A stretch of DNA of 47,041 bases from Candidatus Methanomethylophilaceae archaeon (GTDB taxonomy: Archaea; Thermoplasmatota; Thermoplasmata; Methanomassiliicoccales; Methanomethylophilaceae). The notes under the pieces were generated by a model that made no database searches, was not told the origin of the DNA, and was given only the letters and a program-made list of their open reading frames with translations. Positions 9,055 through 25,295 of the stretch are shown here, in pieces. Position numbers and translations under genes: made by a program. Numbering within the stretch: the first letter of the stretch is position 1; each line of letters starts with the position of its first letter. Where the stretch lies: assembly GCA_017508065.1 (NCBI GenBank), contig JAFVZR010000165.1:1-47041 (forward strand). Direction: 5' to 3'.

Positions 9055-10155
9055 TTACGGGAAGATGCGCTTGCACGTGATCAGGTTGTGCATACGGCGC
9101 TTTCCCAAGATATTCATGCACATGGTCGTAGTCCACTCATAGTGGAATGCGAAGATGTCGGCAAGCTTCTTGTTGAACGCAGCAGTCTTCAAAGGCTTGA
9201 GCATAACGTTGCGCCATTCGGTCTGATAGTCCTCGAGAGAACGTCCGTTGAGGATGTTGTCTCCCGCGACGGTACCACAGATACGTCCTGCGATCAAAGA
9301 CAAGGGGATACCCCCTCCATTGACGGAGATGACGTGGCCTGCAGCATCCCCTACGACCATTCCGTTGCCGGACACGGTATTGGCGATTGGGCCCTCGCTT
9401 GGAACGTACTTTCCTTCGATCTTGTTGATGATCTCAAGATTGTTCTTTGCCCTGAACTTCTCAAAATACTCGGGAAGGGAGCCGTCTGCGAACTTAGGGG
9501 AGAACCCTACTCCGACATTTGCCTGACCTGCCTTAGGCATGATCCAGCTGTAAGCACCGGGTGCGATTCCGCCGAAGTACATGACGACGTAAGGGTCGAA
9601 ATCACCCTTTGCCTGAGCGGTGACTGCGGGGTAAGGGTTTCTGTTCTTGTTGAGTCCAAGGGAACGTGCAACACGGGAACCAGGGCCATCGGCACCGATG
9701 ATAACCTTGTACTCGATATCGCCCATGGAGGTCTTTGCTACGCCATCCTCGATACGACTGAAACTGCAATTCTTGATGAGTTCTGCACCGGCCTTGATGG
9801 CCTCGTCCGCAAGATACTGATCGAAACGATCCCTATCAGTGGTATATCCTGTAAGATCGAGAGTGGTGACCTTTCCCTTAGGGTTGACCAGACGGATACC
9901 TTTGAGTTCCCTGCACCTAAGGTTCGAAGGGATTGTGTCGAAAAGGGACTCCAAATCCTCTGCCTTAGGGAACATGCTCTGGATCATATCGGTCGTAGGG
10001 AGATATTCACCACAGCGAACAGGTACTCCGACCTGACTGCGTCTTTCGATGAATGTGACCTTAGCTCCCTTTTCTGCAGCATATTTAGCTGTCACAGAAC
10101 CGGCAGGACCGGAACCGACGACCAAAACGTCTGTTTTCAATGTAGTCTCAGTCAT
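9055..10155 (-). CDS. Digeranylgeranylglycerophospholipid reductase (geranylgeranyl reductase)
   Basis: This flavoprotein saturates the double bonds of archaeal isoprenoid lipid chains. The 366-residue form beginning MTETTLKTDV is chosen because a GGTGAT ribosome site lies just upstream; the longer frame reads back into the neighbouring gene. It shows the FAD motif GSGPAGS (14-20), the family signature VPVRCGEYLP, IGADGPGSRVAR and GDAAGHVISVNGGGIPL near the C-terminus. The gene directly follows the prenyl diphosphate synthase, matching chain synthesis to chain saturation. A second, more distant reductase lies at 35560-36714; this copy is the better candidate for the lipid enzyme. Confidence 0.9.
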   Translation of the reverse strand: MTETTLKTDVLVVGSGPAGSVTAKYAAEKGAKVTFIERRSQVGVPVRCGEYLPTTDMIQSMFPKAEDLESLFDTIPSNLRCRELKGIRLVNPKGKVTTLDLTGYTTDRDRFDQYLADEAIKAGAELIKNCSFSRIEDGVAKTSMGDIEYKVIIGADGPGSRVARSLGLNKNRNPYPAVTAQAKGDFDPYVVMYFGGIAPGAYSWIMPKAGQANVGVGFSPKFADGSLPEYFEKFRAKNNLEIINKIEGKYVPSEGPIANTVSGNGMVVGDAAGHVISVNGGGIPLSLIAGRICGTVAGDNILNGRSLEDYQTEWRNVMLKPLKTAAFNKKLADIFAFHYEWTTTMCMNILGKRRMHNLITCKRIFP

Positions 10156-10159
10156 ATAA

Positions 10160-11119
10160 TCACCTGTTACGGCGTACGATGTACTTTGCCAAACCGATGA
10201 GGGATTGTTTGTACTCGGAATCGGGAAGGACAGAGAGTGCGTCGATAGCCTCGAGAATGACCTCATCAGCCTTTGTATAGCACTGATCGATGGCTCCTGT
10301 CAAACGGATGAGATCGAGTGCCCTTATAACGTCCGCATCGGTAGGGACACGAGAATAGATGTCCCTGACCTCCTGTCCGAGCTCAGGGTGCTGCATAGCA
10401 TAGATGGTGGGCAAGGTAGGCTTACCCTCGGAGATGTCGATACCGATCTTCTTTCCGGTATTGCTGGTACCGATGACATCAAGGATGTCATCGACCATTT
10501 GGAATGCAAGACCGATCTTTGTAGAATATTCGTTGATGGCTTCGATCCATTCAGTGTTCTCGGTAGCGAGATATGCCCCAGTGACAGCACTTGCAACGAT
10601 AAGCATGGCAGTCTTACCAGTGATGATCTCAAGATAATCGTCAACAGTGACATCGAGGTTGTGTTCGAAATCCTTCTGAATGAACTCGGATTCGACCATC
10701 ATTCCTGCAGCCTTAATGATTAGGTCCATAGGCTCTTCGGGAAGTCTTCCAAGACACCTGTATCCCCTGACCAACATGTAGTCCCCTGCAACGAGGGCTT
10801 TGGTAAGCGAGTACTGTTTGTGGAGAGTCTTACGTCCACGTCTGATCTCTCCGTTATCATCGATATCATCATGAACAAGTGATGCCGTATGAAGGATCTC
10901 AAAACCGGCACCAACGGTCACAGGGATGGATGTGTCCTTTCCCCCACAAGCAAGATATGCAAGGATGCAAACAGCAGGTCTGACCCTCTTTCCACCGGAA
11001 CTGATGACATACTTACACATCTCATCGAGTTCCTTGTTATCGGATGAGAGTGCTCCCATGATAGTGTCCTCTACCTTAGAGAATTCGGTAGAGATGATAT
11101 CTGCCCAGTGGTCGACCAT
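10160..11119 (-). CDS. Geranylgeranyl/polyprenyl diphosphate synthase
   Basis: This enzyme condenses isopentenyl diphosphate with allylic diphosphates to build the C20 chains of archaeal lipids. It has both aspartate-rich motifs, DDIDD (84-88) and DDILD in FQMVDDILDV, plus GGKRVRP (42-48) and the GDYML helix. The start at ATG 11119 (319 residues) is preferred over ATG 11143 because the TATA box (11143-11150) overlaps the latter and lies about 27 bases before the former. Product length is set by residues before the first DDxxD and is not certain. It is followed at once by geranylgeranyl reductase. Confidence 0.92.
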   Translation of the reverse strand: MVDHWADIISTEFSKVEDTIMGALSSDNKELDEMCKYVISSGGKRVRPAVCILAYLACGGKDTSIPVTVGAGFEILHTASLVHDDIDDNGEIRRGRKTLHKQYSLTKALVAGDYMLVRGYRCLGRLPEEPMDLIIKAAGMMVESEFIQKDFEHNLDVTVDDYLEIITGKTAMLIVASAVTGAYLATENTEWIEAINEYSTKIGLAFQMVDDILDVIGTSNTGKKIGIDISEGKPTLPTIYAMQHPELGQEVRDIYSRVPTDADVIRALDLIRLTGAIDQCYTKADEVILEAIDALSVLPDSEYKQSLIGLAKYIVRRNR

Positions 11120-11142
11120 TGCGTAAGCATATCTACGCAACA

Positions 11143-11150
11143 TATATAAA
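11143..11150 (-). promoter_or_regulatory. TATA box of the prenyl synthase - reductase operon
   Basis: TTTATATA on the minus strand lies about 27 bases before ATG 11119. It covers the upstream in-frame ATG at 11143 and so excludes it as the start. Confidence 0.6.
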
Positions 11151-11253: not shown

Positions 11254-12741
11254 TCAGAAGAGTGCTGCTGCAGCCTTGTCACAGAGCTCAAGGAGGATCT
11301 CGGGGTAGACTCCGAGAACGATGACTCCGATGACACAGAGTGCGATCGCGACCATGAAGGGTGCGGGGACGACGATCTTGTCATCACAGGCGGGCTTCTC
11401 GATGTACATGGTCTTGACTACGCGTGCGTAGTAGTACAGGGAGATTGCGGAGTTGATGACAGCGATGAAGGCGAGCCACATCCACTGCATGGAGACTGCT
11501 CCGTCCACAAAGATCGCTCCGGAGAACAGAACGAACTTAGAGGTGAATCCTGCCAGAGGCGGGATACCTGCCAGGGAGAACAGGAACAGCATCATTGCTG
11601 CAGCGAGGAGGGGTGTCCTCTTTGCGAGTCCCTTGTAGTCCTCGATCTTCTCTCCGAGTCCGGCGGTGATCAGTGCTGCGACCATGATGAATGCTCCACC
11701 CTTCATGACCACGTGAGTGAACATGTGGAAGAGAGCACCAGTGGTTGCGTACTGGCTCATGACTGCAAGTGCGATCATGATGTAACCTGCCTGTGCAACA
11801 GAGGAGTATGCGAGCATTCTCTTGATGTTGCTCTGGGAGATTGCGACGAGGTTTCCAACGGTCATGGTGATTGCTGCGATGATCGCGAAGACGTACTGGA
11901 ACTCCAGGGTGAAGACACCGGTGGATCCGATCACGAACAGTGCGAAGAAGATCTTGAAGAGTACTGCGAATCCCATCTTCTTCGATGCGGTTGCAAGGAA
12001 TCCAGACACAGGAGTGGATGCTCCCTCGTAGACATCAGGTGCCCAGGAGTGGAACGGAACTGCTGCGATCTTGAATCCGTAACCTGCGATCATACCGATG
12101 CATCCAAGGATGAATGCCCAGTTTGCGCCCATTACAGCGACCTTTGCTCCGATAGTCTCGATGTTGAGAGTACCGGTGACTCCGTAAATCATGGACATTC
12201 CCAGCAGGGTGAGTGCGGAGGAGAATGCACCGATGATCAGGTACTTGACTGCTGCCTCGGAAGCACGGGGATCGTTCTTCTTGAGAGCGACGAGTGCGTA
12301 GGAGGAGATACTGACGACCTCGACACCGATGAAGATGGCGAGGAGGGTAGTAGCGCTTGCAGCGAACATCATTCCTGCGACGATAGCGGCGATGAGAGAG
12401 TAGTACTCTCCAGCGTGCTTGGTGGTCTCGACGTGTACAGGGGAGACCATGATGGTCAGGAATGCAACAGCCATGAACAGGAGCATCATCAACGAGGAGA
12501 ACGGATCGAACTCGAACATGCCGAATGCAGTGCCGTAAGTAACGGTGTGCATCATGATCATGACGAGAATCGCCGAAATCGCGATGATGGCGAAGGATGC
12601 GCCTGCAACGATCTTTCCATCTTTGGTAGCAAAGTGGAGGAGGGGTGCGAGCAATGCTGCGATCAATACGATAACCTGGGGCAGGATGTAAGTGACCTGT
12701 CCGAAGGCCTCGACCAATGATTCTGCGAACGATTCAAACAT
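11254..12741 (-). CDS. fpoN: Fpo complex proton-translocating subunit FpoN (NuoN-like)
   Basis: FpoN is one of the three antiporter-like membrane subunits of the complex I-related F420H2 dehydrogenase family. The 495-residue form starts MFESFAESLV, preceded by AAGGAG at a normal distance; a longer frame would read into fpoM. The protein is almost entirely hydrophobic with about 14 predicted helices, and the core shows GYGFKIAAVPFHSWAPDVYEG, carrying the conserved Lys and the discontinuous helix, then LAYSSVAQAGY. It is the last gene of the operon. No fpoO or fpoF follows; the next gene is a prenyl synthase with its own promoter. Confidence 0.95.
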   Translation of the reverse strand: MFESFAESLVEAFGQVTYILPQVIVLIAALLAPLLHFATKDGKIVAGASFAIIAISAILVMIMMHTVTYGTAFGMFEFDPFSSLMMLLFMAVAFLTIMVSPVHVETTKHAGEYYSLIAAIVAGMMFAASATTLLAIFIGVEVVSISSYALVALKKNDPRASEAAVKYLIIGAFSSALTLLGMSMIYGVTGTLNIETIGAKVAVMGANWAFILGCIGMIAGYGFKIAAVPFHSWAPDVYEGASTPVSGFLATASKKMGFAVLFKIFFALFVIGSTGVFTLEFQYVFAIIAAITMTVGNLVAISQSNIKRMLAYSSVAQAGYIMIALAVMSQYATTGALFHMFTHVVMKGGAFIMVAALITAGLGEKIEDYKGLAKRTPLLAAAMMLFLFSLAGIPPLAGFTSKFVLFSGAIFVDGAVSMQWMWLAFIAVINSAISLYYYARVVKTMYIEKPACDDKIVVPAPFMVAIALCVIGVIVLGVYPEILLELCDKAAAALF

Positions 12742-12754
12742 TTCTTCACACTCC

Positions 12755-14260
12755 TTAGAAGGCTCCTGCGAAAGGCATGATGAAGTCGATCGCAAGTGTA
12801 GGCCAGATACCGAAGAGGGCAATCAGTGCGCAGAGAACTGCGAGGACTGCAACCTCGTTCTTAGCGATGTCGTGGCAGTGCGAGAGATCGATCTTATCAG
12901 TCTCCTTTCCGAAGAGGGTCTTCTGCATAGCCCAGAGGTAGTAACCTGCAGTGAGCATCATGTCAAGCAGTCCAAAGAGGATCAGTGCATGGAGGTTGTT
13001 GGCGGCGAGGTACTCCCAGAGTCCATAGAGGAGACCGAACTCAGCTATGAATCCCATGAGTCCAGGCAGTCCAAGGGATGCCATGAAACCGAACATCATG
13101 AACAGTGCGTAGACAGGGAACTTTCCTGCAAGTCCGCCGAGGAGACGCATGTCCCTGGTTCCGAAGTTGTGACCTGCGATACCGCAGACCATGAACAGGA
13201 CACCGGAGATGATTCCGTGGGCGAACATCTGGAAGATTGCGAACTCGATTCCGATGACGGAGTTGCAACCCATTCCGACGAGGACCATACCCATGTGGCT
13301 GATAGAGGAGTATGCGACCATCTTCTTGAGATCGTTCTGTGCGATACATGCGTATGCTCCGTAGACCATAGCGAAGATACCGAGACCGATCATGATGGGC
13401 TGCCAGAACTCCATAGCGTTGGGGAAGATCTTGTCGTCAAGACAAATCCTGATGATACCGTAGGATCCCATCTTAAGCATGACTCCTGCCAGGAGGACGG
13501 ATCCTCCGGTAGGTGCCTCGACGTGTGCGTCAGGCAGCCAGGTGTGGAAGGGAGGGACGGGCATCTTGACTGCAAATCCGAAGAAGAGCAGACCGAAGAA
13601 GAACGTCTGGAACACGGTATCGAATGCGGCGTTGTCTCTAACTGCATCGAATGCAAAGCTGATGTACTCGATTCCAGGAACACCTGCCTGTGCTCCGAAC
13701 ACAACAGCGAAGATTCCGATCAGCATGATGACGGATGCTACGTGGGTGTAGACGAAGAACTTGATTGCAGAGTAGTGCCTGCGAGGTCCTCCGTACCAGG
13801 AGATCATGAAGAACATCGGAATCAGGGTGACTTCCCACATGATGTAGAACAGGAAGTAATCCTGTGCCATGTAGACTCCCATGAGTCCAACTTCCATTGC
13901 CAGCAAGAGTGCGTGGTAGTAGTTGGGCCTGTCAGACTCGTGCCAAGAGAACATGACGACGAGGAAGACGAGGAGTGCGGTGAGGAAGACCATGAGGATG
14001 CTCAGTCCGTCGACTGCGAAGATGATGTTCATCTGCAGACCGGCTGCCTGGAACCAAATGTAGCTTTCATCGAACTGGCTGAAGTCGTAATCGTTCTTCA
14101 TTCCTGAGAACAGGAGGAAGAGGGAGACTACGAGGATGACTGCAGAGAAGACTGCTGCCACGTACTTTGCTTTGTCAGCCCTCTGACCGCCCATGAAGAG
14201 GGTCACGAGTGCTCCGATTAAGGGTATGATTACGAGTAAGGAAAGAATTGGGATATCCAT
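12755..14260 (-). CDS. fpoM: Fpo complex proton-translocating subunit FpoM (NuoM-like)
   Basis: This 501-residue antiporter-like subunit has about 14 hydrophobic helices. It shows the Glu of IMWEVTLIPMFF, the family motif FAVKMPVPPFHTWLPDAHVEAPT with the pumping Lys, and MVAYSSISHMGMV. Its ATG overlaps the fpoL TGA (ATGA), so translation is coupled. The length and motif order match NuoM and FpoM. In the assembled complex it sits between FpoL and FpoN and moves ions driven by electron transfer in the peripheral arm. Confidence 0.96.
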   Translation of the reverse strand: MDIPILSLLVIIPLIGALVTLFMGGQRADKAKYVAAVFSAVILVVSLFLLFSGMKNDYDFSQFDESYIWFQAAGLQMNIIFAVDGLSILMVFLTALLVFLVVMFSWHESDRPNYYHALLLAMEVGLMGVYMAQDYFLFYIMWEVTLIPMFFMISWYGGPRRHYSAIKFFVYTHVASVIMLIGIFAVVFGAQAGVPGIEYISFAFDAVRDNAAFDTVFQTFFFGLLFFGFAVKMPVPPFHTWLPDAHVEAPTGGSVLLAGVMLKMGSYGIIRICLDDKIFPNAMEFWQPIMIGLGIFAMVYGAYACIAQNDLKKMVAYSSISHMGMVLVGMGCNSVIGIEFAIFQMFAHGIISGVLFMVCGIAGHNFGTRDMRLLGGLAGKFPVYALFMMFGFMASLGLPGLMGFIAEFGLLYGLWEYLAANNLHALILFGLLDMMLTAGYYLWAMQKTLFGKETDKIDLSHCHDIAKNEVAVLAVLCALIALFGIWPTLAIDFIMPFAGAF

Positions 14261-16317
14261 CAGAATCCGCCTCCGTAAAGGAAGATCAGGGCAAAGATTG
14301 CCAGGATCGCGAGGACACCGACGACGACGAGACCTGCGTAGTCACGGACATATCCAGTCTGGATTGCGCTGAGTCCATCTCCACCGCCACATGCACTGTT
14401 GGACAGCCCGTTGACGGTTCCGTCGATGACGTGTTTGTCGAATGCGTTGACAATTCCTGCAATTCCAGCTCCGAACTTCCAGGAGATCCAGTTGTAGAGC
14501 TCGGGGAAGTAGTGCCTCTTTGCGTTGAAGTTGTACAGCGCACCGTGGTTCTCGGGCTTGAATGCCTCCTCATCGTAGGGAGTTGCTACGTACAGCTTGT
14601 ATGCGATTCCGATACCTGCGATTGCAAGAACGAGTGCAATGTAGGTGGGGATCTCCTTGAAGATCTGAACGATAGTTTCTCCTCCGGTGTGGAAGGGGAA
14701 CTCGAATCCGAATCCGACTGCAAGGGACTCAAGGACACCGTAGGTACCGAAGCTCTTGAAGGCGAGCATGAGCAGACCGCTGAGGGTTGCGAAGACTGCA
14801 AGGATGATCAGAGGAACGGACATGTTGTACGGAGACTCTCCGTGGCAGTGTCCGCGCTCCTTTCCGCAGAAGGTCATGAACCACATGCGGAACATGTAGA
14901 ATGCAGTCATGAATGCAGTGATCATACCGAGGATGAACAGGATCAGGAAGATGGTTCCTGCGTCGCCGAATCCGTGGTGGTAGGGTGCAAATGCTGCCTC
15001 AAGGACGAGATCCTTGGACCAGAATCCGCTGAAGATTGGGATTCCTGCAATGGAAAGACATCCGATGAGCATAGTGTATGCAGTGATAGGCATCTTGTGC
15101 CTCAGGCCACCCATGTGACGCATGTCCTCGGTTCCGACTGCGTGAATGACGGATCCAGATCCGAGGAAGAGCAGTGCCTTGAAGAAGGCGTGGTTGACCA
15201 TGTGCATGACTCCTGCTGTGAATGCTGCTCCTCCGAGGAGGAAGAGCTCTTCTGCGTGTTCTCCACCCTCAAGACCAAGGGAGATCATGTATGCTCCAGA
15301 TCCGAGTGCGAGGACCATGTATCCAAGCTGGGACAGAGTGGAGTATGCGAGAACCCTCTTGATGTTCATGTTGTTGAGTGCCATGGATGCAGTGTAGATA
15401 GCGGTGACACCACCGATGACTGCGACAATGACCATGACGTCAGTGCACTGAACGAACAGGGGGAAGGACCTTGCTATGAGGTAGATACCTGCCTTGACCA
15501 TGGTTGCTGCGTGAATGAGCGCGGAGACAGTGGTAGGTCCGGCCATTGCATCAGGAAGCCAGTCGTGCAGGGGGAACTGTGCGGACTTTCCAACGACACC
15601 TGCGAACATCAGGAGGATTGCTACGGGGAGCAGTTTTCCATACTTGTCCGCGAGGATTGCTGCATTGTCAAAGATGTCTGCGTAATCAAGGGATCCGACC
15701 ATGTACATGAGAATGAACAGACCGGCCATGAGACAGACGTCTCCGAGACGAGTTACGAGGAAAGCCTTCTTTGCTGCGGATGATGCCCTGAAGGATGCCT
15801 CATCACCCTCAGGGTGAGTGAAGCTCCAGAATCCGATGAGCAGGTAGGAACAAAGTCCCATGACCTCCCAGAACACGAACATCTCGAGATAGTTGCTGGA
15901 AACAGCAAGTCCGAGCATTCCGGTAAGGAAGAGGGAGACTTCTGCGTAGTACCTGGTCTTCTTCTCGCCCTGGTCATCCATGTATCCGATGGAGTAGATG
16001 AAGATCAGAGTGGAGATGAAGGATGCGAAGAGCATCATGATACAGGACAATGAATCGATGTAGACTCCGAAGTTGATTTCGAAGGTTCCGACCATCATCC
16101 AAGTCATGTCGACAGTGTATGCCTGGTTGTTTGCCCAGTAATCACTAGTCCAATAGTCAATAGAGGCCAGTGCCGCGATGATGAATGCAATTGCTGCACC
16201 TGCGACTGCGATGTATCCTCCGCCCTGGGGAGTCTTCTTTCCGAAGAGTCCTGCGAGCACGAAGCACACGACCGGTACGAGGGGCACGAGCCATACGTAA
16301 TCGAGTATACCTATCAA
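14260..16317 (-). CDS. fpoL: Fpo complex proton-translocating subunit FpoL (NuoL-like), TTG start
   Basis: At 685 residues this is the largest antiporter-like subunit. It has the N-terminal antiporter core with VGKSAQFPLHDWLPDAMAGPTTVSALIHAATMV and YSTLSQLGYM, and a C-terminal extension matching the lateral amphipathic helix region that braces FpoM and FpoN. Translation begins at TTG (codons TTG ATA GGT) with GAGGTGG a few bases upstream; no ATG lies nearby in frame. The start is 1 base after the fpoK stop. Weak TTG initiation could tune the amount relative to other subunits, but this is speculation. Confidence 0.95.
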   Translation of the reverse strand: MIGILDYVWLVPLVPVVCFVLAGLFGKKTPQGGGYIAVAGAAIAFIIAALASIDYWTSDYWANNQAYTVDMTWMMVGTFEINFGVYIDSLSCIMMLFASFISTLIFIYSIGYMDDQGEKKTRYYAEVSLFLTGMLGLAVSSNYLEMFVFWEVMGLCSYLLIGFWSFTHPEGDEASFRASSAAKKAFLVTRLGDVCLMAGLFILMYMVGSLDYADIFDNAAILADKYGKLLPVAILLMFAGVVGKSAQFPLHDWLPDAMAGPTTVSALIHAATMVKAGIYLIARSFPLFVQCTDVMVIVAVIGGVTAIYTASMALNNMNIKRVLAYSTLSQLGYMVLALGSGAYMISLGLEGGEHAEELFLLGGAAFTAGVMHMVNHAFFKALLFLGSGSVIHAVGTEDMRHMGGLRHKMPITAYTMLIGCLSIAGIPIFSGFWSKDLVLEAAFAPYHHGFGDAGTIFLILFILGMITAFMTAFYMFRMWFMTFCGKERGHCHGESPYNMSVPLIILAVFATLSGLLMLAFKSFGTYGVLESLAVGFGFEFPFHTGGETIVQIFKEIPTYIALVLAIAGIGIAYKLYVATPYDEEAFKPENHGALYNFNAKRHYFPELYNWISWKFGAGIAGIVNAFDKHVIDGTVNGLSNSACGGGDGLSAIQTGYVRDYAGLVVVGVLAILAIFALIFLYGGGF

Positions 16318-16318
16318 T

Positions 16319-16621
16319 TTACCACCTCATGGTCGAAAGCTTGTCGACATCGGTCGTCTTCTGGATCTTGTATGCGTTGAGCATGAGTGCGATACCGACT
16401 GCAACCTCAGCTGCCGCGATTGCGATAGTGAAGATGACGAACACAAGTCCATCTGCATTTCCAGTGTAGGTGGAGAATGCGACGAAGTTGATGTTAGCGG
16501 AGTTGAGCATAAGCTCGATGCTCATCAGAGTGACCACTCCTCTCTTGGAAGTAATCAGACCGAACATTCCGATACCGAACAGGATTGCACTGAATACAAG
16601 GAAGAATGCAATATCAATCAT
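16319..16621 (-). CDS. fpoK: Fpo complex membrane subunit FpoK (NuoK-like)
   Basis: The 100-residue protein starting MIDIAFFLVF has three hydrophobic helices and the NuoK signature with the two membrane glutamates: MSIELMLNSANINFVAF and IAIAAAEVAVGIALML. The start at 16621 has GGAGG just upstream and overlaps the end of the second fpoJ gene by eight bases. Length and motifs are normal for the family. It forms part of the ion path between FpoH and the antiporter-like subunits. Confidence 0.94.
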   Translation of the reverse strand: MIDIAFFLVFSAILFGIGMFGLITSKRGVVTLMSIELMLNSANINFVAFSTYTGNADGLVFVIFTIAIAAAEVAVGIALMLNAYKIQKTTDVDKLSTMRW

Positions 16622-16907
16622 CGTTATCTTCCTCCTCTCTTGAAACACAGACACCAGCAATCATCGCGGTGAACATGACAATGCCCAACACGAGGATGAC
16701 TGCGCCGTACTTCTCGAACAGAACCTTGTTCAATGCGTTGGGTGCGAGCTCACCGTCGTCTCCGGGGACGAAGGGGATTGCGTTGTCCTGAACTCCCTCA
16801 GAGTAGTCGACTCCGGTTCCGAGGTCTTCCCACTCAGTGAAGATTCCGATCGATGCTACTGCAACGACCATCACAACTGCCAGAAATGCTGCTGCTTTTC
16901 TGTTCAT
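16614..16907 (-). CDS. fpoJ: Fpo complex membrane subunit FpoJ, C-terminal half (split NuoJ)
   Basis: This 97-residue protein starts MNRKAAAFLAV, with one helix near each end (AAAFLAVVMVVAVASIGIF and YGAVILVLGIVMFTAMIAGV) and an acidic tail EEEDNDD. It matches the second half of NuoJ; splitting of fpoJ into two genes is also known in Methanosarcina. The start lies one base after the preceding fpoJ gene's TAA. The soluble loop between helices (about residues 25-60) is acidic. Assignment rests mainly on its position between fpoJ N-terminal and fpoK and on helix pattern. Confidence 0.85.
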   Translation of the reverse strand: MNRKAAAFLAVVMVVAVASIGIFTEWEDLGTGVDYSEGVQDNAIPFVPGDDGELAPNALNKVLFEKYGAVILVLGIVMFTAMIAGVCVSREEEDNDD

Positions 16908-16908
16908 C

Positions 16909-17238
16909 TTACTCGTCCTCCTCTTCAACAATGGTCCTCCTGGTCAGCATGACGCTGAATGCGAAGAGGATGGTGATTGCACCGACATAGACCATCATCT
17001 GGATAACACCTATGACCTCCGCGTTGAGGAAGAAATAGGTAACTGCAACACAGGTGAACACCAATGCAAGATAGAATGCGCTGTGCATAGTCTCTTTCGA
17101 GGTGACGACGAGGATTGCAGATGCGATTGCGATTGCTGCGACTACGACGAAGGCTGCTGCGTCTCCGTTGTTGTAGATTGCAGTGAAAGCATCGCCGATC
17201 CAACCAATTACGTTGTTAACTGCTGCTCCGATATCCAT
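16909..17238 (-). CDS. fpoJ: Fpo complex membrane subunit FpoJ, N-terminal half (split NuoJ)
   Basis: The 109-residue protein contains the typical NuoJ segment: three helices with MHSAFYLALVFTCVAVTYFFL and VIGVIQMMVYVGAITILFAFSVML, the latter including the conserved YVGAI bend. It ends TRRTIVEEEDE, where a full NuoJ would continue to further helices, here supplied by the next gene. It starts one base after fpoI. The first helix (about residues 27-47) begins after a short N-terminus. Confidence 0.92.
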   Translation of the reverse strand: MDIGAAVNNVIGWIGDAFTAIYNNGDAAAFVVVAAIAIASAILVVTSKETMHSAFYLALVFTCVAVTYFFLNAEVIGVIQMMVYVGAITILFAFSVMLTRRTIVEEEDE

Positions 17239-17239
17239 C

Positions 17240-17983
17240 TTACAACACCTCGTTCATCTTGAGCGCATCCTTGGGACAGTCGATGATACAGTTGCTGCAC
17301 GAGATGCAGGTTGCCTCATCGATCTTGGGGCGCTTGATGTCCTTTCCTTTGTCGTTCTGTCCTACGACGACCATCTCGATGGCGTTGACAGGGCAGACCT
17401 TTGCGCACTTCTGACATCCAATGCACTTCTTGTCCTCCAGGACGGGCCTGTCGGTGTTGTAGAATGCAGTGGGCTGGTCAGTGATGCCCTTCGCGAGGTT
17501 GGACATCAGGTGCTCTTCGATGTGTACCTCCATCATGTCGGTGGTGTACTCGAAGTGAAGCCTGCGGGGGTCGTAGATCAGATCGTATCTGTTGAACTCT
17601 GCGAGCTCGTAGTCAGTGGTGGTGGTCATTGCATCAACGGGGCAGTACTCTGCACAGTATCCGCACATCATGCACCTTCCGACGTTAACCTGAGGTCTGA
17701 GGACCATCTTTCCGTCATCGTCGGCGACCTCGACGAGCTCGATACAGGTAGTGGGGCATGCTCTGACACAGATTCCGCATCCGAGACACCTGTCGAACCT
17801 GAGTCCGGGGCGTCCGCGGTAGTTGTCAGGGACCCACTCCTTCTCGTAAGGGTAGAGGATAGTGACAGGCCTGTGGAAGGTGGTCTTGAACATGTGTTTG
17901 AAGACCTTCAGCACGGGCGTGATGATTCCGGTACCCTTGAACTTCTTAGGGTATTTTGAATAATATTCAGTAGGCTGTGCCAT
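17240..17983 (-). CDS. fpoI: Fpo complex ferredoxin-like subunit FpoI with four 4Fe-4S motifs
   Basis: FpoI normally passes electrons through two 4Fe-4S clusters to FpoB. This 247-residue version has four cysteine motifs: C66/69/72-C76 and C104/107/110-C114, matching NuoI, then a second tandem ferredoxin domain C187/190/193-C197 and C226/229/232-C236. An intermediate segment (about 120-180) links the two halves. The extra domain could be a docking or electron-entry module in a complex that has no FpoF. The start at ATG 17983 overlaps the fpoH stop as ATGA. The first two motifs make the family assignment secure; the role of the extra domain is inferred. Confidence 0.94.
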   Translation of the reverse strand: MAQPTEYYSKYPKKFKGTGIITPVLKVFKHMFKTTFHRPVTILYPYEKEWVPDNYRGRPGLRFDRCLGCGICVRACPTTCIELVEVADDDGKMVLRPQVNVGRCMMCGYCAEYCPVDAMTTTTDYELAEFNRYDLIYDPRRLHFEYTTDMMEVHIEEHLMSNLAKGITDQPTAFYNTDRPVLEDKKCIGCQKCAKVCPVNAIEMVVVGQNDKGKDIKRPKIDEATCISCSNCIIDCPKDALKMNEVL

Positions 17984-19215
17984 CAGAACACACCTCCATA
18001 ATCCCAGATCCACTTAATCAGGATGGTGATGACCAGGTTGATGACGGCGAGAGGCATGAGAACCTTCCATCCGACGTTGACGATCTGATCGGTCCTGACA
18101 CGAGGCAGTGCACCCCTTGCAGTAATGAAGAATATGAACACGAAGCAGGTCTTCAGGACGAAGAACAGCTCGGGGAAGTACTGATAGTACCAGTCAAACT
18201 CATTGATGATAGGCATGGACCAACCACCGAGGAACATGATGTTGACAAGTGCACATGCAACGAATCCTCTGAAGTAGTCTCCAAGCATGATGAGACCCCA
18301 CTTCATTCCGGCGTACTCGGTCTGCCATCCCTCGACGAGCTCAGCCTCTGCCTCGGAAAGGTCAAAGGGAACACGCTCGGACTCTGCGATAGCGCAGACG
18401 AGACAGACGAAGAATCCGACGATCTGGGGAACAATGAGCCAGATGTGCTCTTCCTGCCAGGTGATGATGTCACCGATGTTGAAGGATCCAGTCATGTAGA
18501 CGGTTCCAGCAAAGAGGATGAGCATAGGTACTTCGTACGAAATCATAAGTTCTGCCGCACGGAGACCTCCGATAAGCGAATACTTGTTGTTCTGTGCCCA
18601 ACCGGCGCACATGATAAGGAAGGGTGCCAGTGCGAAGAATGCGAAGATCAGCAGGAGACCGGTGTTGTAGTCGACGATGAACCACCTGGGGGACAGGGGA
18701 ATCATACATGCGAGCAGGACAGAGGTTCCGATGACGAGGACAACTCCCCACCAGTAGATCTTCTTATCGATTGCCCTAGGTGCAACGTTCTCTTTCATGA
18801 AGGTCTTAAGACCATCTCCCAGACACTGAAGGTATCCGAGAGGTCCGATCATGGTACCGCGCCTGTCCATCTGCCTTCCGAGGAACTTACGCTCTTGCCA
18901 GATCATCGTCAGGTTGGTGACGAATCCAATAGCGAAGATGACGACGACCATGAGGACGATCGCCATTGCGTTGGTTGCAGTATCGGAAATCAGTGCGAAG
19001 GACACTGCGTTGTTGGGAACAAACAGGTTGATGAGCCATGCGATGAGTCCACCGAGACTCTCCCAAACCTTGACTCCAATATCGTAAGGAAGGTTGTAAA
19101 CGTCATAGGGAGACATTCCAACGATGTCAGAGTACTCGTGACCGTTGAGGCATACAGAACCGCCATCTGCGAGATCGGTGGCCCTGTTAACAATCCATTC
19201 ACGTAATCCGGACAT
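17983..19215 (-). CDS. fpoH: Fpo complex membrane subunit FpoH (NuoH-like)
   Basis: FpoH anchors the peripheral arm and forms part of the quinone or methanophenazine chamber. The 410-residue protein has about eight helices and the family motifs GPLGYLQCLGDGLKTFMKE, AESERVPFDLSEAEAELVEGWQTEYAG and FIFFITARGALPRVRTDQ. ATG 19215 is chosen because an AGGTGAT ribosome site lies a few bases upstream; an in-frame GTG at 19224 falls inside that site. An N-terminal extension of about 60 residues precedes the first clear helix, longer than in many homologues. Confidence 0.95.
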   Translation of the reverse strand: MSGLREWIVNRATDLADGGSVCLNGHEYSDIVGMSPYDVYNLPYDIGVKVWESLGGLIAWLINLFVPNNAVSFALISDTATNAMAIVLMVVVIFAIGFVTNLTMIWQERKFLGRQMDRRGTMIGPLGYLQCLGDGLKTFMKENVAPRAIDKKIYWWGVVLVIGTSVLLACMIPLSPRWFIVDYNTGLLLIFAFFALAPFLIMCAGWAQNNKYSLIGGLRAAELMISYEVPMLILFAGTVYMTGSFNIGDIITWQEEHIWLIVPQIVGFFVCLVCAIAESERVPFDLSEAEAELVEGWQTEYAGMKWGLIMLGDYFRGFVACALVNIMFLGGWSMPIINEFDWYYQYFPELFFVLKTCFVFIFFITARGALPRVRTDQIVNVGWKVLMPLAVINLVITILIKWIWDYGGVF

Positions 19216-19220
19216 CTTAA

Positions 19221-20336
19221 TCACCTGTCAGTCTCTCCGAGACACATATCGATCATTGCCATGACGGTCGGGATATCTGCGAGCCTTACGCCCTGGACCA
19301 TGCGCTTCGAAGCGGAAACGTTGACGAAGACGGGACTGCGGACCTTGAGCCTGTAGGGCCTGTCGGTTCCATCGGAGATGAGGTACATGACACTCTCTCC
19401 ACGGGGGTCCTCTATCCTAGCCATGTGGGTTCCCTCGGGGATTGCCTTGGGGACCTTCAGCCTGTAGGGTGCGGTCTTGGGGATGGACTCGAGCTTCTTC
19501 ATTGCCTGCTTGATGATAGAACAGGACTGGAACATCTCCTCGATCCTGACTCTGAACCTTGCATAGGCATCTCCGTCCTTGTAGACGGGAACGTAGAAGT
19601 CCATGTCTCCGTATGCGTCATAGGGGTCGTCGCGCCTGACATCGTAGTCGACACCGCATCCGCGCATTGCGGGTCCGGTGATACCGAGGTTGGCACACTC
19701 CTCACGGGAGATGTAACCGATTCCCTTGACCCTTCCAACGAAGATGGAAGAATCGTCGGTGAGGTTGACGATATCCCAGAGGGCCTTCTCGAATCTCTCG
19801 ATTCCTCTGAGGCAGTCCCTCTCGAAGTAGTAAGGCATGTCGTTCCTGACTCCTCCGATACGGGGGTAGTTGGTGGTAAGCCTCTGTCCACAGAGCCTGA
19901 CGTTGAGATCGAGCATGAACTCCCTCTCCCTCAGTGCCCACAGGAAAATGGTGAGGTTACCTGCGTCAGTTCCGACTGCTGCGAGCCACATCAGGTGTGA
20001 CTGGATACGACAGATCTCATCTGCTACGACACGAAGGTACTGTGCCCTCTCGGGGACCTCGATGTCGAGTGCCTCTTCTGCAACCTTACAGAACAGGTGT
20101 GACCAGGTCATCGATGCAGAGTAGCAAAGACGGTCGGCCATGGGGATGATCTTCTGGTAATCCCTCTGCTCGCACTCTTTTTCCCATCCGCGGTGAAGAT
20201 ATCCGACTTCGGGTTCAGCATCGGTGACGATCTCTCCGTCGACCTGGGCCCTAAGGGTCCAAAGACCGTGAGAGAACGGGTGCTGGGGACCCATGGTGAG
20301 CCACATCTTGTCCGCGTTCATCTTCTCTTGTGCCAT
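19221..20336 (-). CDS. fpoD: Fpo complex subunit FpoD (NuoD-like, 49-kDa family)
   Basis: The 371-residue protein shows GPQHPFSHGLWTLRAQVDGE near the N-terminus (the family's GPxHP motif), then EVGYLHRGWEK, and ends ADIPTVMAMIDMCLGETDR, matching the conserved C-terminus of the 49-kDa subunit. It contributes the electron acceptor site together with FpoB and FpoH and is related to the large subunits of NiFe hydrogenases, but has none of the four nickel-binding cysteines. The ATG overlaps the fpoC TAA stop. Confidence 0.95.
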   Translation of the reverse strand: MAQEKMNADKMWLTMGPQHPFSHGLWTLRAQVDGEIVTDAEPEVGYLHRGWEKECEQRDYQKIIPMADRLCYSASMTWSHLFCKVAEEALDIEVPERAQYLRVVADEICRIQSHLMWLAAVGTDAGNLTIFLWALREREFMLDLNVRLCGQRLTTNYPRIGGVRNDMPYYFERDCLRGIERFEKALWDIVNLTDDSSIFVGRVKGIGYISREECANLGITGPAMRGCGVDYDVRRDDPYDAYGDMDFYVPVYKDGDAYARFRVRIEEMFQSCSIIKQAMKKLESIPKTAPYRLKVPKAIPEGTHMARIEDPRGESVMYLISDGTDRPYRLKVRSPVFVNVSASKRMVQGVRLADIPTVMAMIDMCLGETDR

Positions 20337-20836
20337 TACTGTGACCCCCTAAGCTTGTAGGACTTCCTGAAGGGGAAGAATTCGTAGCTCTTGGGTGTGA
20401 GCAGCCTCTCCAGCTTGGGGTGGCCGTCGAAAATGATTCCGAAGAGCTCATAGGTCTCCCTCTCGTGCCAGTTGGCACCGCCCCAAACGGGTGCGACGGA
20501 AGCCACGTGGAGATCATCAGCAGGAATGTTGACGACGATCTCAACGGTGATCGAGTTGAAGTAGTTGGTAATGTGGTAAACTACCTGCATGTGGTCGACC
20601 CAGTCAACACCGGTGACCATGGATGCCTGCTCGAAGTTGAGCTTGTCACGAAGGAAGTAGGCGAGATCGAGGATGACCTCCCTGTCAGCGTCCATGAAGA
20701 TCCTTCTCTTCTCGTTGATGGACCTGACGTTCTTCTTGGTGGACTGCCTGAACTTGACCTTGTCACCGAACTTGGATCCGATGAGGGAAATGATGTCGTC
20801 GTAGGACGGACTCTCAATTTTCTGTTCGTCTGCCAT
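20336..20836 (-). CDS. fpoC: Fpo complex subunit FpoC (NuoC-like, 30-kDa family)
   Basis: The 166-residue protein has the 30-kDa family signature WHERETYELFGIIFDGHPKLERLLTP near its C-terminus and a beta-rich N-terminal part. It is a structural subunit of the peripheral arm bound to FpoD. It lies four bases after fpoB and overlaps fpoD; together B, C and D form the core through which electrons pass from FpoI to the acceptor. Confidence 0.94.
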   Translation of the reverse strand: MADEQKIESPSYDDIISLIGSKFGDKVKFRQSTKKNVRSINEKRRIFMDADREVILDLAYFLRDKLNFEQASMVTGVDWVDHMQVVYHITNYFNSITVEIVVNIPADDLHVASVAPVWGGANWHERETYELFGIIFDGHPKLERLLTPKSYEFFPFRKSYKLRGSQ

Positions 20837-20840
20837 GTTA

Positions 20841-21404
20841 TCAGTCCATCATGAAGTTGCCTCTCTTGAAGTAGGCATCAATCTTCTTCTGAAGCAGGAA
20901 GAATCCATCGAGCATCGCATCGGGCTTGATCGGGCATCCGGGGATGTAGACATCCACAGGAACGATCTGATCGAGTCCCTGAACGATGTTGTAGGAGTCG
21001 TACCAGGGTCCACCAGAAATGGCGCACTCTCCCATCGCGACAACCCACTTGGGTGAGGGAATCTGCTCATAAAGACGCCTGATGTCGGGGCGGAGCTTCT
21101 TGGAGATCCATCCGTTGATCAGGAGAATATCGGTCTGCCTGGGCGAAGAACGGTAGATGATACCGACACGCTCTGCGTCGTACCTGGTGTTGGATGCCGC
21201 TGCCATCTCGAGTGCACAGCATGCCAGTCCGAAGTGCAGAGGGTGCATGGAGTTCCTCATAGCCCAAGCCCAGACGGGTCCGGTCAATCTGTCGACCGTC
21301 CTCTTCACACCTGACGACAGCATGTTGTTGATCATTGCTGAAGACCAGGACATGAATTCGTCCGCGCTCATTGCAACTGCGTGGGGATACAGGCTCATAT
21401 CCAT
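20841..21404 (-). CDS. fpoB: Fpo complex iron-sulfur subunit FpoB (NuoB-like)
   Basis: FpoB holds cluster N2, the last electron carrier before the acceptor. The 187-residue protein has all four ligands: the adjacent Cys62-Cys63 in GLACCALEM, Cys127 in GECAISGG and Cys157 in PGCP. The ATG at 21404 has GGAGG seven bases upstream; a second ATG at 21398 overlaps the fpoA stop (ATGA) and is the alternative. Surrounding motifs (SPRQTDILLINGWI, YIPGCPIKPDAMLDGFFLLQ) match the family. Confidence 0.95.
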   Translation of the reverse strand: MDMSLYPHAVAMSADEFMSWSSAMINNMLSSGVKRTVDRLTGPVWAWAMRNSMHPLHFGLACCALEMAAASNTRYDAERVGIIYRSSPRQTDILLINGWISKKLRPDIRRLYEQIPSPKWVVAMGECAISGGPWYDSYNIVQGLDQIVPVDVYIPGCPIKPDAMLDGFFLLQKKIDAYFKRGNFMMD

Positions 21405-21757
21405 ATGGTTTCCTCCTTCTTAAGTGCGTAAGCCACTCCGAGCAGGAGTATACCCAAGAAGACAAGCACGAATACTGTTGCAGTCGTGCTGAGTGCCGAA
21501 TAGGCAACGGCCCACAACGCGAGGAAGGTCGCGACCAGGTCGAAAACGACGAAAATGATTCCGAATGCATAGTACTGGAATCTGAACTGGACGCGTGCGA
21601 CTCCGATCGGTTCTGAACCGCACTCATAGGTATCGTCCTGCCACTGGGATGGCTTCTTAGGTCTGAGGAACCTAGACATCCACCATGCGAGTGGGGCGAA
21701 GCCGAGAGCTAACACTCCCAACGCCGCCAACGGTATATAACTCACAATAAGTGACAT
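21395..21757 (-). CDS. fpoA: Fpo complex membrane subunit FpoA (NuoA-like)
   Basis: The 120-residue protein has three helices and the family motif YECGSEPIGVARVQFRFQYYAFGIIFVVFDLVATFL, with the membrane-edge Asp and Glu typical of NuoA (motif at about residues 44-78). It is the first gene of the operon, directly behind a TATA box, and overlaps fpoB by ten bases. It wraps around FpoH near the acceptor chamber in the assembled complex. Confidence 0.95.
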   Translation of the reverse strand: MSLIVSYIPLAALGVLALGFAPLAWWMSRFLRPKKPSQWQDDTYECGSEPIGVARVQFRFQYYAFGIIFVVFDLVATFLALWAVAYSALSTTATVFVLVFLGILLLGVAYALKKEETIWI

Positions 21758-22759: not shown

Positions 22760-24508
22760 TCACATAACGGGGTTCTTCTTCCTTCTCTCGAAGGGCCATG
22801 AGTGCTTGACGAGACCCATGACGACCCTGGGAGCGTTGGACCATATAGAGCCAGCATCCCAATCGAGGTCCTTCTTGTTGCAGACGGTGGAGGCCATCAT
22901 CCTCTCACCCTCTTCCTTAATGTCCCAGAGCTTCGCAGTACGAGTGCTCTCGTCCTTGATGAGGAGGATGTCGTCGATGCGGTGCAGGAGGTCTCTGGCT
23001 ATGTTGGTCCTCTCCACACGCTCGTCATAGGCTTCCTGAGTGGTGCGTCCACACTCGAGTTCGATATGTGCCAGCTCGAGTGCTGCATCGTAGGAGACGT
23101 CTGCGATCATATCCCTGGTCATCCACTTGGTCTCGTAGGACAGGACATGTTTCCAAGAGGGATTCTCCAAGAGTGCCCTGTGCTCATCGAGCGTCCTTGC
23201 GAAGAACTTGTATCCGAACCTCTCTGGCTCTTCGAATGCCCTGCTTCCGGGATCGACGAATGGTGCGAAGGGTGCGGTGTAGACGTAGAGCTTGTCGTCC
23301 TTTCCAACGGCGTTCCAGAGGTTCCTCGCCTCACGTGAACTGTTCATAGCGGACTCGACAGTCTGCTCTGGAAGTCCGGTCATGTAGAAAACATCGAATC
23401 TGGCACATCCATTTGCGAACGCAGAAGTGAGGGTCTTCTCGACGGACTTGTTATCGTAGTTCTTACCCATGGCCATCCTTACGAGCTCATCACTGGAGTC
23501 AGGAGAGATCTCCATAGAGTACTCTCCGAATCCGTGCTGGAGCTGTGAGAAGAACTCCTCGTTTCCGGGAGCGAAGAGCTCGAAGGCAACATGGTTCTTG
23601 ATACCTTCTTTCCTTGCTGCCTTGACCATGCGCTCGACATAGTCCTTTCCTCCCTGACGGGGATCCCCGATGACGAAGATAGGCGTATCCAGATAGTCCT
23701 GGATGATGGACATGTCCTCTACGAGCTTCTCAGGACTTCTGAAAGCAGCATGATTCCTGCACAGGAGCCTCTTGTTCGCTGCATGGGATCCACCGCACTC
23801 AGCACAGTTGAGGTTACATCCACGGACGGTGAAGACGGAGGTCAACGGGAGCTTGTCCCAGTCCAACCAAGGGAGTGCCCCTTTGATGTCCCTGTTCCTG
23901 AGAGTACATTTGATCATCGTTCCGTAATCGAACATACACCAGTCGAGATCCTCGGGGATGTTGGTGATGGGGTTGACATGAACCTTTCCGTTCTTGTCCT
24001 TCCAGGTGAGGTTGGGGACGTCCTCCAGGTTTCCTCCGTCACAAAGCACCTGCATGAGCTTGACGTGTGGAAGCTCGGTGGAGTCACCGCGCATGACCAT
24101 ATCGATGTAGGGCCTCTGGATCAGATCCTCGTAGAAGTATGAGGAGGAGAATCCTCCGAACTCGACTATTGCATCAGGATGGTACTTCTTGACTATCTTA
24201 GCGATCTCGATGGCACCGTGACAGTGGGGCATCCAGTGAAGATCGATGGCGTACACCTTGGCATGGAGCTTCTGGATGACACGCTCTACGTCGAGCTTCT
24301 TGTTCTGGAGCATCTGAACCGCAAGGTTGACGATCCTCGTCTTGAATCCTGCAGCCTCGAGGTGAGAGGACATGGTCATGAATCCGATAGGGTACATCTC
24401 GAACACAGGGGACGAGGGGACCACATCACTGACCGGTCCGTAGAAGATCGGTTTCTTCCTGAAATCGTACACAGTTGGTGCGTGTATGAATACAATATCT
24501 GTTGCCAT
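22760..24508 (-). CDS. B12-binding domain/radical SAM protein (Ta0216-like family)
   Basis: The 582-residue form starts MATDIVFIHAP with GGTGAAAAA just upstream. The N-terminal third resembles a cobalamin-binding Rossmann domain (PIGFMTMSSHLEAAGFKTRIVNL), and a radical SAM core begins with the cluster motif CNLNCAEC. Additional cysteines (GGSH...LLCRN) follow. The pattern resembles a family described from Thermoplasma (Ta0216). Such enzymes perform radical methylations or rearrangements at unreactive carbons; the substrate here is unknown. It is the last gene of an operon after uppS and marker 11, which hints at, but does not prove, a lipid or coenzyme modification. Confidence 0.85.
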   Translation of the reverse strand: MATDIVFIHAPTVYDFRKKPIFYGPVSDVVPSSPVFEMYPIGFMTMSSHLEAAGFKTRIVNLAVQMLQNKKLDVERVIQKLHAKVYAIDLHWMPHCHGAIEIAKIVKKYHPDAIVEFGGFSSSYFYEDLIQRPYIDMVMRGDSTELPHVKLMQVLCDGGNLEDVPNLTWKDKNGKVHVNPITNIPEDLDWCMFDYGTMIKCTLRNRDIKGALPWLDWDKLPLTSVFTVRGCNLNCAECGGSHAANKRLLCRNHAAFRSPEKLVEDMSIIQDYLDTPIFVIGDPRQGGKDYVERMVKAARKEGIKNHVAFELFAPGNEEFFSQLQHGFGEYSMEISPDSSDELVRMAMGKNYDNKSVEKTLTSAFANGCARFDVFYMTGLPEQTVESAMNSSREARNLWNAVGKDDKLYVYTAPFAPFVDPGSRAFEEPERFGYKFFARTLDEHRALLENPSWKHVLSYETKWMTRDMIADVSYDAALELAHIELECGRTTQEAYDERVERTNIARDLLHRIDDILLIKDESTRTAKLWDIKEEGERMMASTVCNKKDLDWDAGSIWSNAPRVVMGLVKHSWPFERRKKNPVM

Positions 24509-24518
24509 TTTTTCACCT

Positions 24519-25295
24519 TCACGTACCAAAACGTCTGGCACGTTGTTGATAGGACCTTACTGCCCTCAGGTAATCGATGTACCTGAAACTGGGCCAATAC
24601 ACGTCCGTGAAATAGAGTTCTGAATATGCTAACTGCCAAAGCAGGAAATTGGAGACCCTGAACTCACCGGAGGTCCTGAGCACGAGATCGGGATCGGGGA
24701 CCTCGAAGGTGTACAGGTACTTGGAGATGGTTTCCTCATCCACATCATCGATATCGAGTTCGCCGGAGTTCACACGGGAAGAGATCTCCTTGACCGCATT
24801 GACGATCTCCTGTCTTCCCCCATATGCGATGGCCATGTTGAAGTTGTAATCGCCGTAGTCCGCGGTCTTCTCCTCGGCGTAGACGATGGCCTCCAACATC
24901 TCGTCCGGGATCAGGTCCCTCTCCCCTATGGCTCTGAGACGGACGCGGTTGTCGTGGACCCTCTGATCGTCCGCCAACTCCCTCAGGGATTCGCCTATGA
25001 GCTCCATGAGGAAGGATACCTCCTCCGGATCCCTGTTGAAGTTTTCGGTGGAGAATGCGTAGACTGTGAGGTTCCTGACACCGAGTTCCATACACCAATC
25101 GAGGACGTCCTTGATCTTCTCCTTTCCGGCAAGATGTCCTTCCCTGGGTTCGAGGCCCTGTTCACGGGCGTATCTCCTGTTACCGTCCATGATGATGGCG
25201 ATGTGCTTCGGAACGGGTTTGTCCGAGACCTCCCTCTCAAGACGCTTCTCATAGATTCCATAGATAGCGTTGGTCAGGAGGCCGAGAGGATTCAT
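24519..25295 (-). CDS. uppS: cis-Prenyl (di-trans,poly-cis-decaprenyl) diphosphate synthase
   Basis: This enzyme extends prenyl diphosphates in cis to make the lipid carrier for glycan assembly. The 258-residue protein has HIAIIMDGNRRYA (31-43) with the catalytic Asp37, GHLAGKEK, YAFSTENF and RTSGEFRVSNFLLWQLAYSELYF. The start at ATG 25295 overlaps the stop of marker 11 (ATGA) and has GGAGG six bases upstream; the longer frame reads into that gene. Archaeal members make dolichol-type C50-C60 chains, but chain length cannot be read here. Confidence 0.94.
   Translation of the reverse strand: MNPLGLLTNAIYGIYEKRLEREVSDKPVPKHIAIIMDGNRRYAREQGLEPREGHLAGKEKIKDVLDWCMELGVRNLTVYAFSTENFNRDPEEVSFLMELIGESLRELADDQRVHDNRVRLRAIGERDLIPDEMLEAIVYAEEKTADYGDYNFNMAIAYGGRQEIVNAVKEISSRVNSGELDIDDVDEETISKYLYTFEVPDPDLVLRTSGEFRVSNFLLWQLAYSELYFTDVYWPSFRYIDYLRAVRSYQQRARRFGT

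Follow-up and report, generated by a model that had tools for sequence, protein, structure and literature searches.

The window analysed here (the whole stretch of 47,041 nucleotides) encodes a complex I whose FpoI subunit carries four [4Fe-4S] binding motifs, a real and conserved variant of complex I that is undescribed as far as the open-access literature shows. I found no mention of a four-cluster FpoI in that literature, and a prior mention in primary papers beyond it is possible. The protein consists of an ordinary NuoI/FpoI, equivalent to the part with clusters N6a and N6b, to which a second 2x[4Fe-4S] ferredoxin-like domain is fused C-terminally. I consider it somewhat probable, from the sequence evidence set out below, that this fused domain is a built-in electron-entry relay of the headless, 11-subunit complex I.

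The fpo operon and the four-cluster FpoI protein

The subunits A, B, C, D, H, I, J, K, L, M and N are all encoded, which makes this a complete headless complex I operon (Table 1). A group 4 [NiFe] hydrogenase was ruled out, since FpoD lacks the L1/L2 CxxC motifs and is above the cut-off of a NuoD model. The claim that this complex operates without FpoF holds, as the metagenome-assembled genome (MAG) to which the window belongs (94% complete) encodes no protein of the FrhB/FdhB family (PF04432 absent); PF10589 is also absent from it, and so is NuoEFG. The polyprenyl synthetase and geranylgeranyl-reductase-like genes lie downstream of the operon in the same direction, and the former adjoins fpoN also in L037, L072, L087 and L088. 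A B12-binding radical SAM protein is encoded near fpoA (22760-24541), and a similar gene is located beside fpoA in the families f8 and f24 (L126, L127, L128, L136; f-numbers are working family labels).

Table 1. Features of the fpo operon, of the FpoI protein and of the adjoining genes in the window.
Feature	Position	Strand	Basis or remark
fpoA	21395-21757	minus	NuoA models; Oxidored_q4
fpoB, cluster N2 subunit, CC...C...C ligands present	20841-21404	minus	TIGR01957 above cut-off; sequence read
fpoC	20336-20836	minus	TIGR01961 slightly below its cut-off; Complex1_30kDa
fpoD, without [NiFe] cysteine motifs	19221-20336	minus	NF004739 above cut-off; sequence read
fpoH, start uncertain	17983-19224	minus	NuoH models
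fpoI	17240-17983	minus	247 aa + stop, ATG start; NuoI/FpoI with four [4Fe-4S] binding motifs
FpoI N-terminal NuoI/FpoI domain, residues 1-145	17549-17983	minus	N6a/N6b equivalent; TIGR01971 residues 31-142; Foldseek to NuoI chains
FpoI Cys motif 1, residues 66-76	17756-17788	minus	motif read; invariant in alignment
FpoI Cys motif 2, residues 104-114	17642-17674	minus	motif read; invariant in alignment
FpoI linker between dicluster domains, residues 146-178	17450-17548	minus	model confidence lower
FpoI C-terminal extra 2x[4Fe-4S] ferredoxin-like domain, residues 179-247	17243-17449	minus	Pfam Fer4_7, PorD_KorD, model
FpoI Cys motif 3, residues 187-197	17393-17425	minus	motif read; invariant in alignment
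FpoI Cys motif 4, residues 226-236	17276-17308	minus	motif read; invariant in alignment
fpoJ N-terminal half	16909-17238	minus	NuoJ models
fpoJ C-terminal half	16614-16931	minus	weak Oxidored_q3 match; position
fpoK	16319-16621	minus	NuoK models
fpoL	14260-16317	minus	NDH_I_L
fpoM	12755-14260	minus	NDH_I_M
fpoN, start uncertain	11254-12822	minus	NDH_I_N
polyprenyl synthetase, possible membrane electron-carrier synthesis	10160-11143	minus	PF00348
geranylgeranyl-reductase-like flavoprotein, same cluster as polyprenyl synthetase	9055-10266	minus	GGR_cat

Within the nuo/fpo operon, fpoI lies between fpoH and fpoJ. Its product passes the NuoI model TIGR01971 over residues 31-142 (163.6 bits, with a cut-off of 113.05). 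On NF040612, the model of 135 positions for FpoI of the Methanosarcina type, it scores 121.6 bits, below the curated cut-off of 180, and the best stretch covers the first two motifs only. All four motifs read in the first-pass annotation are present at exactly the residues listed in Table 1, each a CxxCxxCxxxC followed by P. The C-terminal part scores above the PorD_KorD cut-off in a profile search, and Pfam Fer4_7 matches residues 186-240.

The gene is present in 128 of the 147 Methanomassiliicoccales genomes (73 of 74 among the good ones), and Methanomethylophilaceae and Methanomassiliicoccus are among the named relatives that carry it. In an alignment of 41 sequences from the order, where the others are 42-87% identical to the window FpoI, all 16 cysteines are invariant; together with the broad presence of the gene, this indicates that the four motifs are not a product of chance. 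Every Methanomassiliicoccales FpoI sequence read has four motifs but L086, which has three and whose gene is cut by a contig end. The extra C-terminal ferredoxin proposed earlier is thus borne out as a conserved two-cluster ferredoxin-like domain, and motifs 3 and 4 presumably hold iron-sulfur clusters.

An AlphaFold2 model of FpoI (41 sequences) has a mean pLDDT of 76 and a pTM of 0.61, confidence being about 85 in both ferredoxin-like units and lower in the linker, and the extra domain is predicted to have ferredoxin-type strands and helices. In a Foldseek search against the PDB, NuoI chains match part of the model, and the extra ferredoxin unit is absent from them among the matches listed; the polyferredoxin FwdF is the only listed match that spans both halves, with a low TM. 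That the N domain was recently duplicated within the protein is unsupported, the halves being 37% identical. In a domain tree, the extra domains of Methanomassiliicoccales and relatives mostly cluster together, separate from the N domains.

The window FpoI shares its N-terminal domain and operon place with that of the Methanosarcina F420H2 dehydrogenase (NF040612); the latter however has two motifs and works with FpoF and FpoO, whereas the window protein has a second dicluster domain and no FpoF. The N6a/N6b domain is also shared with the bacterial, chloroplast and cyanobacterial NuoI/NdhI, the closest solved structures, but none of the NuoI chains among the PDB matches possesses the extra ferredoxin domain. 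NDH-1 likewise accepts electrons from ferredoxin. The polyferredoxins FwdF and MvhB are, as in the window FpoI, strings of CxxCxxCxxxCP dicluster units that act as electron wires, but they are separate subunits of other enzymes, whereas the extra domain is fused to NuoI.

The complex in the window corresponds to the published headless Fpo of Methanomassiliicoccales, which is reported to be devoid of FpoF and FpoO and to depend on ferredoxin, HdrD being its presumed partner (PMC4153887, PMC5011839, PMC7374477, PMC7485788, PMC10804542); the four-cluster FpoI is the feature added here. A ferredoxin-dependent headless Fpo has been proposed for both Methanothrix and Methanomassiliicoccales (PMC10470525, PMC7374477, PMC7485788), and no donor protein common to headless complex I has been found (PMC11238625).

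Distribution of the extra domain in Thermoplasmatota

The FpoI gene and its operon were read in representatives of many families of the class and phylum. About 13 Thermoplasmatota families beyond Methanomassiliicoccales possess extra FpoI motifs, mostly four to six in total: four in f13, f14, f19, f23, f25, f27, f28, f31, f36 and f52, mostly six in f8, five in f24, and three plus a degenerate one in f7. Two motifs are found in f22, f30, f33, f34, f45, f51, f53, f59, f60 and f37. The extra domain is therefore not confined to the window or to the order. A maximum-likelihood tree of FpoD and FpoH (44 rows) shows a 100/100 split between an extra-cluster clade of 32 rows and a sister clade of 12 with two-cluster FpoI, with f37 (L271) as the sole member of the former that lacks the extra FpoI domain. 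The domain is thus old and characterises one deep Thermoplasmatota complex I lineage, rather than a single methanogen.

The five- and six-motif proteins in L125, L126, L128 (f8), L127, L136 and L137 contain a third dicluster unit, with a motif spacing of 46 residues. Two types of extra domain can be told apart by cysteine spacing (35-39 versus 46), but as a loose label only, since a domain tree of 67 columns gives the division no support.

Electron entry, HdrD and FpoF

In the favoured explanation, reduced ferredoxin would dock on the fused C-terminal domain, and electrons would pass from clusters 4 and 3 to N6a/N6b, then to N2 in FpoB and on to the quinone or lipid-carrier site, where their arrival would drive pumping in FpoHJKLMN. 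Ferredoxin is the likely donor by analogy with what others have reported on Methanomassiliicoccus and Methanothrix, and the order of electron flow through the FpoI clusters is likewise a probable one. In families that possess HdrD, the FpoI arm may also serve as a docking place for an HdrD-type protein. Electron input from ferredoxin or a heterodisulfide reductase partner, in replacement of FpoF, had been suggested in the first-pass annotation; a role in input or docking is plausible, since a real, conserved two-cluster domain is found in a complex without FpoF, but the replacement of FpoF does not survive (see below). The two-cluster headless complexes of the same phylum imply that the extra domain is not required to run complex I without FpoF or NuoEFG, and its occurrence in f13, f14, f36 and f52, which have no HdrD orthologue, means that the shared function must be broader than heterodisulfide reduction.

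A possible alternative, of lower probability overall but a serious one in the HdrD-bearing families, where it is compatible with the entry relay, is that the C-terminal domain docks soluble HdrD (2x[4Fe-4S] and two CCG domains). Heterodisulfide reduction would then be coupled straight to pumping by complex I, with no need for HdrE or cytochromes; in organisms that are not methanogens, the enzyme coupled in this way would be an HdrD-like dehydrogenase. An association of Fpo with HdrD has already been proposed for Methanomassiliicoccales (PMC7374477, PMC7485788, PMC10804542); in contrast to the HdrD of HdrDE, no HdrE is reported in this order (PMC4153887), and Fpo has been proposed as the partner instead.

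I searched 300 genomes of the class for HdrD orthologues, defined as full-length matches with E<=1e-68, and found them in 111, belonging to f1, f2, f3, f5, f6, f8, f19, f20, f23, f24, f25, f27, f28 and f31. Within the class, these occur exclusively in families with an extra-cluster FpoI, the one exception being f20, where NuoI gave no match; none was found at this threshold in the two-cluster families f22, f30 and f33. The f20 genomes G160 (3.2 Mb) and G170 (5.2 Mb), each a single contig, encode two HdrD orthologues apiece and no NuoI match. Against docking, the extra-cluster families f7, f13, f14, f36 and f52 yielded no HdrD orthologue. In addition, the tree provides only one to three independent contrasts for the co-occurrence, and the case for HdrD therefore rests on gene linkage.

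The search had been prompted by hdrD-like genes beside fpoB and fpoI in f31 and f25, and the arrangement in f8 and f24 is an independent confirmation. Positions compared by hand place hdrD, or an hdrD-like gene, within about 12 kb of fpoI on the same contig in 26 genomes from six families (f8, 13 genomes; f27, eight; f24, two; f25, f28 and f31, one each). In f8 and f24, the sequences read show hdrD divergent from fpoA, with mobB-like and radical-SAM genes in between. In f25, f27, f28 and f31, the main operon has the order A-C-D-H-J, and fpoB and fpoI have moved out of it to lie together upstream of the hdrD-like gene (L132-L135, L138, L205, L206, L300-L308). The Hdr partner proposed earlier thus gains genomic support from six families with a multi-cluster FpoI, but all of these are outside Methanomassiliicoccales, where hdrD is unlinked to fpo (150 kb away in G072, for example).

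The Methanomassiliicoccales HdrD orthologue possesses two 4Fe-4S motifs and two complete CCG domains, as does the one encoded in the genome of the window (G000:C35:1951-3066, L296), and both CCG domains are also complete in f8, f24, f19 and f23. The HdrD-like protein of f25, f27, f28 and f31 is missing one cysteine in both of them (CC to CS; L133-L135, L138, L205, L206, L299), and with these usual noncubane cluster ligands lost, it probably does not act as an ordinary heterodisulfide reductase. Docking has the further difficulty that electrons accepted by HdrD at the input arm would bypass the pump in a short circuit. The f1 HdrD (L290, L291, L293, L296) has a long C-terminal extension with an Ala/Glu/Lys-rich stretch, followed in L290, L291 and L293 by a conserved domain (RRAAWNKGLRCR...); in L293 and L296, this extension has no Pfam match.

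A wider scenario, which I regard as tentative and on balance doubtful, can be drawn from these sequence comparisons: the extra-cluster FpoI would mark an ancient Thermoplasmatota complex I whose ferredoxin arm docks HdrD-family proteins, forming a cytochrome-free HdrD-complex I supercomplex that Methanomassiliicoccales inherited for heterodisulfide reduction, with non-methanogen relatives using other HdrD-like enzymes.

It is improbable that the main flow of electrons bypasses the C-terminal domain, with donors reducing N6a directly and the domain being an appendage that serves as a structural element or a redox buffer. The two-cluster headless relatives do without the domain, as does f37 (L271) within the clade, but the invariance of 16 of 16 cysteines in Methanomassiliicoccales and the retention of extra motifs in about 13 further families speak against this reading.

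As for FpoF, no protein resembling a true one was found in any genome checked, including all Methanomassiliicoccales genomes searched, and the FrhB/FdhB family is absent from nearly all Thermoplasmatota genomes checked, on both sides of the FpoI split; NuoF-type proteins occur only sporadically, in 8 of 58 genomes. All FrhB/FdhB-family hits for which a score was obtained fall far short of the FpoF cut-off. A few Methanomassiliicoccales have an FrhB-family protein, which was rejected as a hidden FpoF: the one tested scores at most 114 bits against FpoF cut-offs of 444-475, and its gene adjoins an HdrA2-FlpD fusion. In L222 (2964-9848; Methanomassiliicoccales), such a fusion is followed by an FrhB-like and then a glutamate-synthase-like protein, possibly an F420-linked Hdr. 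When compared with the loss of fpoF, the extra domain does not track it, as FpoF is missing in four-cluster and two-cluster families alike (the latter being f22, f30, f33, f34, f45, f51, f53, f59 and f60). That the domain arose on loss of F420H2 input and took over the role of FpoF is therefore unlikely, and the least probable of the explanations weighed here, even though Methanomassiliicoccales are devoid of a true FpoF, since the two-cluster complexes are equally so and the tree places the domain before the order.

What is new here, besides the four-cluster FpoI, is the class-wide tie of HdrD orthologues to the extra-cluster FpoI, and the linkage of hdrD to fpoI in 26 genomes. The fusion of a ferredoxin to the entry subunit, retained across a whole archaeal branch, provides a concrete candidate entry site for mutation and imaging. 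The hdrD neighbourhood outside the order offers independent genomic support for the proposed Fpo-HdrD link of methyl-reducing gut methanogens, and suggests that this link is older than methanogenesis, or separate from it.
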